64,000 nucleotides of DNA from Globisporangium splendens. Its lineage: Eukaryota > Oomycota > Peronosporomycetes > Pythiales > Pythiaceae. Below are positions 39,508 to 41,458 of the stretch, one piece after another (position 1 is the first letter of the stretch; each line of letters begins with the position of its first letter). A program made the translations under genes and the position numbers. The notes under the pieces are model-generated. The model was not told the DNA's origin. It worked only from the letters and a program-made list of their open reading frames with translations, and searched no databases. Location of the stretch: positions 580,466 through 644,465 of the forward strand of contig VFIW01000018.1 in assembly GCA_006386115.1 (NCBI GenBank), given 5' to 3'.

Positions 39508-41458
39508 CTACAGCGTCGACTCGTTTGTGTTACTGCCGTCGTCGTGTTGCCCGCCATCGTTGCCTGAGTCGTGGTCGACGCGTCGGCGCTTGTATTCATT
39601 GTACTTCTTCGAAGACCCTTTCACGAGCTCTGCTGGGTACTTTCGTGCGTTCTTGGCGATCTTGTCCTGCACCGCGGTGGGCAAATCTACATTGCATTTG
39701 TCTATAGTAAAAGTGACAAGCAAAGCAACGTAATGAGACTTTTTGTTCCTCCACCAAAGTCTAAAGCAACAATCACACCAATAGCAGCATAAAGATGGCA
39801 CACAACACAGTACCTGCGAGGCGTACTAAATAGATCAACACATCGCTGAGTTCTTCCCCCAAGTGTGTTTTCTCCTCTGGTGTCCATTCTGTTCGAGGCA
39901 AAAACGTATGGATCATCAGATATCGCAATGAGCACTCGACAACACACATAAGGTCCACAAAGTCTTGATCTACGCACCTTCTATAGGCTTGTTCTCGTTC
40001 TTCCACTGAAAGATCTCGCACAATTCGCCGACTTCACCTGTCATGGCCAGCAACAGATTGCGCGGCGTGTGAAACTACACACACACACAAAGATGCACGT
40101 CAACAAAATATGTTGGACTCGGATCCTATCAAAGTGAGGTCCACGGAATTACAACACATACCTGATTCCAATCACGCTGGTCGGCGAAGTGTGCCAGTTT
40201 CTTTCGAATCGATTCAAGCGTCGTTGTCTCCTCAAACCGCGCCGGAGAGTGTAGCTCCTTCGAGGCGTCTGCAAAGTCGTCGTCGTCGTCGCCCATGCTG
40301 CTCTCGATCGCGCTCGCGAGCAGCGCCTCGCTCTCATGCACGCCTGCTGCATCCAGGATGTCTGTGTCGTGCTCATGCGCGGCTTGCAACAACACGTGCG
40401 CCTGGGCTTGCGCGCGTGCTTGTGCTTGCACCTGGGTGTGAGCCTGTACCTGAGCTTGTGCTTGAGCAAGAGCTTGGGCCTGCGCTTGAGCGTTCAGCAT
40501 CTCCTGAACTTGAGCATGCGCCTGCTCGACAGCTTGGGTCTGCGCTTTCAACAGCACCTGGGCTTGCGCCTGTGCCAATGCCTGAGATTGCGCTTGCGCA
40601 TGAGCTTGAGCCTGTGCTTGTGCCACGGCGTGAGCATGCGCTTGCGCTTGCGCTTGGTTCTGTGCGTGGGCTTGTGCTACTGCTTGCGCCTGCGCAAACT
40701 GCACCTGGAGGTCCATCTCTGCTGAGGTTGACAGCGCCGTCGCCGATGCCGCCGCGTGCATCTCGGAGCCCGAGAGCGACGGCGCGGCTTCGTTCTCGCT
40801 GCCCAGCTCGTAGTCAGAATCGTGGAGCGCAGGCATGTTCTTGATCGCGTCGGGGCCGATCGGGTGGTTGTGCTTGTCCTGCATGCGCACTTTGACGCGG
40901 TACGTCGCGCCAAACTCGACCGCCGACGCGTACACGTGGAACGGACAGCCAATATCCCTTAGCTTATGCCGCAGCCGTCGGCCATTGCCGCGCGCGCGGA
41001 ACTTGATGCCATGCGTGCATTTGAACGTCTTGGACAGGAACTCTGCAATGTTCTTACGATCATGGCGTCCTACATAGACAAGTTTTAGTCATGCTGCCCG
41101 AACGCTCAACATATACATACACACATGCTCTGCTATACCGCGCGTTACCTTTGGAGACCGTGCGGTTGTACACCTCGAACGTGAGCGACGAGCGCTTGCG
41201 GATCGGATGGTGCTTGTCGATCGCGACGGCCACGGCGTGGTCGAACGCCGCCCAGTCGTCGTAGTACTCGTCGAAGAGCGCCGCGGAGCTGCCGCCATCC
41301 AGGCCGTCGTGGCCGTCGCCCTCGCCTTCGCCGCCCAGAGCCACCGACGCGGACGACGAGACTGCCGCGTGGACGTCCGCCAGGTGCGCGTGGCGCTCGT
41401 CGTCGCTCTCGTCCAGCGCGTCGACACCGCCCTTCATCTCGAGCGGCTTCAGGTCCAT
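39508..41458 (-). CDS. Fusion of a FAR1-like zinc-finger domain, Ala/Gln repeat and dCTP pyrophosphatase (MazG-like)
   Basis: Five exons, 41149-41458, 40162-41069, 39978-40074, 39814-39888 and 39508-39701, give 527 residues; all four GT-AG introns keep phase. Residues about 85-190 look like a FAR1/MULE-type DNA-binding finger (FKCTHGIKFRARG, DIGCPFHVY, DKHNHPIG). A stretch of about 110 residues of alternating Ala-Gln with some His follows in the same exon. The last 150 residues are a MazG-like dCTP pyrophosphatase: LESIRKKLAHFADQRDWNQ, then FHTPRNLLLAMTGEVGELCE (first metal site E-x2-E), then GEELSDVLIYLVRLAG (second, E-x2-D), then the RKYPAELVKGSSKKY end. DCTPP1 enzymes remove dCTP and modified forms. 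The fused partner is unusual. Start at 41560 is an alternative. Confidence 0.75.
40380..40700 (-). repeat. Ala-Gln coding hexanucleotide-like repeat
   Basis: The DNA repeats a 6-base pattern of GCTTGC/GCCTGA type on the plus strand, which reads as alternating Ala-Gln (with His and Val) on the coding strand. It is imperfect and about 110 residues long. It lies inside the FAR1-dCTP pyrophosphatase gene and could change length easily. Confidence 0.8.

Follow-up and report, generated by a model that had tools for sequence, protein, structure and literature searches.

A FAR1/ZSWIM3-N-like finger joined to a predicted dCTP pyrophosphatase in one lineage of oomycetes

Structure of the fusion gene

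The window, by which we mean the whole 64-kb stretch of Globisporangium splendens DNA that was analysed, carries on its minus strand a gene of five exons that extends from an ATG at 41458 to a stop codon ending at 39508. The introns are all of the GT-AG type and the predicted protein has 527 aa. From the amino terminus, it consists of a finger with the pattern C-x23-C-x24-HxH, a linker rich in alanine and glutamine and a complete MazG domain of the DCTPP1 type. The parts of the gene are listed here with their positions in the window.

41149..41458, minus strand: exon 1, with the start codon, the N-terminus and the first part of the finger (41278-41149); it ends in a GT donor, and the N-terminus is near-identical in the G. 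ultimum protein P0001
40162..41069, minus strand: exon 2, a single open frame, kept in the aligned relatives, that encodes the remainder of the finger, then the linker and the first MazG helix
40855..41278, minus strand: FAR1/ZSWIM3-N-like finger, C-x23-C-x24-HxH (41278-41149 in exon 1, 41069-40855 in exon 2), assigned by the ligand pattern and by profile comparison
40396..40707, minus strand: Ala/Gln-rich low-complexity stretch of the linker, whose length depends on the species
40288..40362, minus strand: conserved linker motif DIL..HESEALLASAIESSMGD, similar to what we take to be the consensus of the ubiquitin-interacting motif (UIM) and not reached by the Pfam UIM model
39978..40074, minus strand: exon 3, with the equivalents of the metal residues E63 and E66 (GEVGELCE) and of W73
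39814..39888, minus strand: exon 4, with the equivalents of E95, D98 and Y102 (EELSDVLIYL)
39508..39701, minus strand: exon 5, with the equivalents of K121 and N125, the C-terminal basic patch KKYNEYKRRR (39609-39580) and the stop codon

An earlier note on this DNA had given the gene the extent 39508..41458, and both outer coordinates proved exact. It had also placed the finger, the Ala-Gln stretch and the first DCTPP1 helix together in one exon. This holds for the finger ligands C121, C145, H170 and H172 (spacing 23 and 24), which share the uninterrupted frame of exon 2 with the Ala/Gln stretch (A or Q at 73 of 104 residues) and the first MazG helix, whereas the finger domain itself begins in exon 1. 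The three further exons that were said to complete the MazG fold with its metal residues are exons 3 to 5. For exon 5 the upstream acceptor at 39701 was preferred because it restores the DKCNVDLP motif of the relatives, and with it the protein has 527 aa.

A second copy of the fusion gene is found on contig C192. It is intact and 95.5% identical over 4.4 kb, flanks included, and is probably the other haplotype.

Distribution of the fusion in oomycetes

The finger alone (residues 60-190) was used to search 5.8 billion proteins at E 0.001 or better. This yielded 44 proteins with candidate lengths of about 287-913 aa. An organism name was attached to 31 of them, all oomycetes, and these represent 25 species of the genera Globisporangium, Pythium, Lagenidium, Nothophytophthora, Phytophthora, Peronospora, Hyaloperonospora, Plasmopara and Peronosclerospora. 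The lineage with the fusion, which includes Phytophthora, the downy mildews and Pythium, presumably corresponds to a grouping of Peronosporales, Pythiales and Lagenidium. When the G. splendens protein was added to the 44 matches, the motif of the first MazG helix was readable within the same predicted protein in 45 of 45. By a pattern test, exons 3-5 were complete in 33 of the 45, and several of the 12 incomplete models end in apparent intron read-through. Many of the fused proteins are named "dCTP pyrophosphatase 1" in UniRef. In a G. ultimum protein the finger region is 99% identical to that of G. splendens. The presence of the fusion in related genomes, which had been proposed as a check, was found, with the conserved residues kept and every named carrier an oomycete.

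Short proteins were sought with a profile in addition; there were 21 matches of 67-288 aa, one of which (P0040) was already known. A pattern sort of the 20 new ones assigned 15 to exon-1 pieces or other sequences, while P0166 and P0183 extend to the MazG helix and three models contain the finger only: P0165 from Peronospora destructor, P0167 (45% identical) and P0184. In the opposite direction, the models from Lagenidium and [Pythium] brassicae have MazG repeats joined to the fusion, and these are perhaps neighbouring genes that were merged.

An artefact of the gene model or of the assembly could in principle have joined two neighbours, and a probable assembly chimera does occur at the end of the same contig. 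However, the chimera begins about 6.5 kb away, the join lies within one exon in both G. splendens copies and the architecture recurs in the 44 database proteins, which makes an artefact hardly credible.

Among the papers listed from the open-licence literature on oomycete dCTP pyrophosphatase, MazG, FAR1 and domain fusions, surveyed by titles and the starts of abstracts, no treatment of the fusion was found. The main text of a paper on oomycete domain fusions (PMC2705460) leaves dCTP, XTP3 and FAR1 unmentioned. Likewise, the main text of the P. ultimum genome paper (PMC2926784) contains none of five terms looked for.

The enzyme domain

The enzyme domain was analysed with a 522-aa version of the fusion protein. 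Pfam family PF12643 scored 36.1 bits (cut-off 27, E 8e-9) and a PDB search retrieved mouse DCTPP1, 2a3q, at E 3.4e-35. When the contigs of G. splendens were searched with PF12643, no match was obtained at E 0.001, probably because the introns cut the domain. With DCTPP1 / RS21-C6 (XTP3-transactivated protein A), the protein of this family, the fusion has in common the whole enzyme domain with the metal residues and most pocket residues. The best 120 of 1138 DCTPP1 relatives, with lengths to about 231 aa, have the size of a single domain, whereas the oomycete fusion has the finger and the linker in front.

For mammalian DCTPP1, the available text of PMC4491611 describes a tetramer with a structure modelled on mouse 2OIG and a pocket formed by His38, Trp47, Glu63, Glu66, Trp73, Glu95, Asp98 and Tyr102. 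D98 and N125 of the active site are also treated in the accessible part of PMC2954211. The equivalents of W47, E63, E66, W73, E95, D98 and Y102 are kept in 33 of 33 complete fused copies. K121 and N125 were found by pattern in 32 of 33, and the one miss, P0032 with DKIRKNA, retains both. Seven of the eight pocket residues named in the available text of PMC4491611 are therefore kept, with His38, which contacts the base in the mammalian enzyme, as the exception. Its position is occupied by I, L, V or T in all 45 fused proteins. The replacement of His38 was considered as a lost substrate contact peculiar to the fusion, and this was rejected. Among the 112 stand-alone relatives the position was readable in 81, with Gln in 40, Leu in 17, Met in 9, Val in 5, Ala in 5, Ile in 4 and His in just 1, so that His38 does not define the DCTPP1 family. 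As judged by its residues, the enzyme domain of the fusion is of the DCTPP1 type with an intact active site, and catalysis is predicted. The single fused gene of the earlier note, with the active-site residues of the enzyme, is supported, and it is conserved in relatives.

In the Saprolegniales, DCTPP1 appears to stand alone. Eight stand-alone proteins of 127-160 aa were seen among the proteins covered, which reached about 231 aa, and none has a finger. Saprolegniales are also absent among the named matches of the finger search. Their enzymes, from Aphanomyces, Saprolegnia, Achlya and Thraustotheca, are 65-70% identical to the fusion enzyme over about 92% of the query. Among the best 120 of 1138 they are the best-scoring named enzyme relatives after the P. 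infestans protein P0045. A C-terminal patch like KKYNEYKRxR is present in the 9 fused proteins compared and is weaker in 5 Saprolegniales. In an enzyme tree of 36 rows, 7 of them Saprolegniales, the latter formed their own clade with a support of 100/99. The fused enzymes and finger-free double-MazG repeats came together with a weak support of 31/69, and the repeats were placed among the fused enzymes, some on long branches.

One such double-MazG gene without a finger lies in G. splendens at C100:490877-492277, about 128 kb from the fusion, and its introns are, by eye, at the same places as those of the fusion. Among the matches listed, this gene and the two fusion copies are the only MazG places of G. 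splendens. The presence of the double-MazG gene implies that dCTP clearance in G. splendens need not depend on the fusion.

The finger and its relatives

The finger was more difficult to classify. A Pfam scan of the 182-aa N-terminal piece of the fusion showed no family up to E 1, and the fingers of 8 relatives gave none up to E 10. A PDB search with the finger profile found no related chain, the best one being unrelated at E 1.2. The AlphaFold models were poor, with a mean pLDDT of 48.1 for a full-length relative and 53.3 for a finger-only relative. With Foldseek the full-length model matched mouse dCTPase 6sqw at E 2.7e-8 and the finger model matched nothing at E 0.001. Since the fusion finger has no Pfam match, the FAR1 label rests on the comparison with relatives.

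The finger ligands are kept in 43 of the 45 fused proteins, and the two misses are P. cactorum models that are apparently garbled. In G. splendens the finger has many distant relatives, among others on the contigs C78, C135, C142, C113 and C162. On C135 (492-505 kb) single-finger frames of 285-344 aa form a cluster, and C162 (1382-1386 kb) has a frame of 1344 aa with four fingers. When the fused fingers were aligned by hhalign with 11 finger relatives of G. splendens, the result was 99.2% at E 3.6e-19, against 0.2% for the DCTPP negative control. Three of the G. splendens relatives were scanned with Pfam and matched ZSWIM3_N at E 2.4e-5, 3.8e-5 and 3e-4, all under the cut-off. The first two also matched FAR1 under the cut-off (E 0.038 and 1e-4), the third ZSWIM3_N alone, and the best FAR1 score among them was 23.4 bits against a cut-off of 28.1. 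UniRef calls the finger-only P0165 a 'FAR1 domain-containing protein', and a Pfam scan of P0165 found no FAR1. The layout C...C...HxH is common to the fusion finger, the FAR1 DNA-binding domain (PF03101) and the N-terminal domain of ZSWIM3 (PF21599), but the fusion finger passes neither model and is followed by no transposase or SWIM domain. By profile comparison, the finger of the fusion is a divergent FAR1/ZSWIM3-N relative below the Pfam cut-offs. It is clearly of one family with the G. splendens relatives and, by its ligands and profile kinship, belongs to the WRKY-GCM1/FAR1-like finger superfamily.

Its sequence relatives indicate that the finger superfamily also serves MULEs. On contig C113 a finger of the fusion type, which the fusion matches in tblastn at E 1.8e-5, lies directly upstream of a broken-frame MULE transposase, and on contig C121 a FAR1 match above the cut-off adjoins a MULE match. 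According to the available part of a MULE survey (PMC6446971), FAR1 occurs in some MULEs of Phytophthora, which agrees with the kinship of the finger. However, the best-scoring relatives lie on C78 and C135, which have no MULE among the matches listed, and on C162, with a MULE match at a distance of about 180 kb; descent of the finger from a transposase is possible. The FAR1/MULE type that had been assigned to the finger is partly supported: the profile kinship and the C113 finger in front of a broken MULE speak for it, the scores below the Pfam cut-offs and the best relatives without a listed MULE against it.

Selection on the domains and the linker

The two G. splendens copies differ in 47 codons, 35 by synonymous and 12 by nonsynonymous changes (dN 0.0099, dS 0.104, dN/dS about 0.095). 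Here the enzyme had a dN of 0.0035 (1 change), lower than the 0.0080 (2 changes) of the finger. Between species, conservation was calculated from 26 of 30 aligned rows after 4 rows without the whole enzyme had been dropped. It amounted to 0.935 for the finger (core 0.952), 0.891 for MazG and 0.48 for the linker. The mean pairwise identity in these rows was 0.897 for the finger and 0.824 for MazG, and the finger was the more identical of the two in 278 of 325 pairs. With G. ultimum set aside, complete relatives were 66-79% identical to G. splendens in the enzyme and, when the garbled P. cactorum pair is also set aside, 83-89% in the finger. From these comparisons, both domains are under purifying selection. 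The finger is conserved between species no less than the enzyme, and somewhat better by our measures.

Alternatively, the fused frame might be incidental and the gene might yield its finger protein and its dCTP pyrophosphatase separately, with an internal promoter or start for the latter. The P. infestans model P0045 (126 aa) begins at an internal methionine before helix 1, and P0165 of Peronospora destructor (247 aa) is a finger-only model, both as expected for two products. Yet the methionine at the start of P0045 is a threonine in G. splendens. In addition, both domains stay in frame across a linker whose length ranged between 49 and 232 residues in 31 of the 32 models measured. The linker also differs between the two G. 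splendens copies by 18 synonymous and only 7 nonsynonymous changes and contains a conserved motif. We regard two separate products as improbable.

The conserved motif, DIL..HDSE.LL..AI.S.MG, reached a conservation of 0.65 against 0.48 for the linker. A strict UIM-like pattern, which was formulated once the motif was known, occurred in 19 of 38 linkers, compared to a mean of 0.04 and a maximum of 2 in 1000 shuffles, and in 0 of 120 other DCTPP proteins (18,987 aa). The motif was rejected as a Pfam UIM, as PF02809 does not reach it: no match was obtained in 6 motif peptides, and none of the 12 genome places listed is that of the motif. Its likeness to a ubiquitin-interacting motif may serve as a lead. 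Low-complexity matches to TFIIA and Mediator 15 were discarded as reflecting composition only.

The frequency of the pattern in the linkers, over that in shuffles and in other DCTPP proteins, would fit a finger that is a protein-protein or dimerisation module. The UIM-like patch would then recruit the enzyme to ubiquitylated partners, e.g. the stalled replication machinery, and contact to DNA would be minor. Against this, the UIM consensus is one we assumed, the pattern is post hoc and Pfam UIM has no match. The strict pattern is also missing from half of the linkers, and these sequences are related and not independent. A protein-binding role of this kind appears quite improbable.

Possible function of the fused protein

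House-cleaning NTP pyrophosphatases are usually regarded as soluble enzymes of the nucleotide pool. DCTPP1, among these, disposes of dCTP that is surplus or damaged. That a lineage has joined it to a finger and has conserved this finger no less than the enzyme suggests an activity with a fixed place on the genome or a part in its regulation. The explanation that we prefer, and hold with middling confidence, is a single constrained bifunctional protein. It would combine an N-terminal FAR1/ZSWIM3-N-like finger with a dCTP pyrophosphatase of the DCTPP1 type whose active site is intact, and would possibly be nuclear. The DCTPP1 core would form the usual tetramer and so present four fingers per enzyme on long flexible linkers. 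In the nucleus, a location to which the C-terminal patch KKYNEYKRxR may point, the fingers may bind to DNA or to a chromatin partner, and dCTP or its derivatives would be hydrolysed at that place. That the finger is so well conserved between species suggests that it recognises a specific site on DNA and does not just tether the enzyme loosely.

A specific site would also suit a transcription factor that senses nucleotides. In this case the finger reads the site, the Gln/Ala linker acts as activation region or scaffold and DCTPP is a module for tetramerisation and dCTP sensing that is reset by hydrolysis. In favour of such a sensor, the finger is somewhat better conserved than the enzyme between species and the linker is rich in Gln and Ala. 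The finger family of G. splendens includes the four-finger frame and the single-finger frames of C135, and the separate double-MazG gene could handle the bulk clearance. On the other hand, the catalytic residues are retained in all complete copies, which a mere sensor would not need, and between the two G. splendens copies the finger is not the slower part. A sensor is possible, although we lean against it. Activity and sensing might also be combined in a transcription factor that reads the dCTP pool via a still active pyrophosphatase. Ligand occupancy of the tetramer would then alter the DNA binding of the four fingers and couple nucleotide supply to a fixed set of genes in this one oomycete lineage, with the linker patch reading ubiquitin. 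This combination strikes us as doubtful.

For the preferred bifunctional protein, a link to cytosine modification had been suggested by the earlier note, and this was not supported. A search with the C5 DNA methylase family PF00145 gave 0 matches in G. splendens; it proceeds by single exons and might overlook a gene in pieces, and as a control the family matched in 10 of 14 prokaryotic genomes. The available text of PMC6211444 reports that no 5mC was detected in either P. infestans or P. sojae. A link to cytosine methylation is unlikely.

Neighbourhood of the gene

The window reaches the end of the contig. Between 48000 and 64000 the GC content rises from 0.52 to 0.63-0.67 and the genes are bacterial, with RelA/SpoT, AMP nucleosidase, hydantoinase A/B and a permease. 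The RelA/SpoT gene is 99% identical to those of Achromobacter mucicolens and A. animicus, and the match of the permease near the junction stops at profile position 302 of 470. Most likely, a bacterial contaminant was joined here to the contig in an assembly chimera.

Just upstream of the start of the fusion gene, a relic at 41738-41905 on the minus strand can be aligned at 171 positions with the four-finger gene of contig C162, with 86.6% identity. At 42539-43861 on the minus strand, a 440-aa open frame has an RVT_3/RNase H-type domain and is probably the remnant of a retrotransposon.
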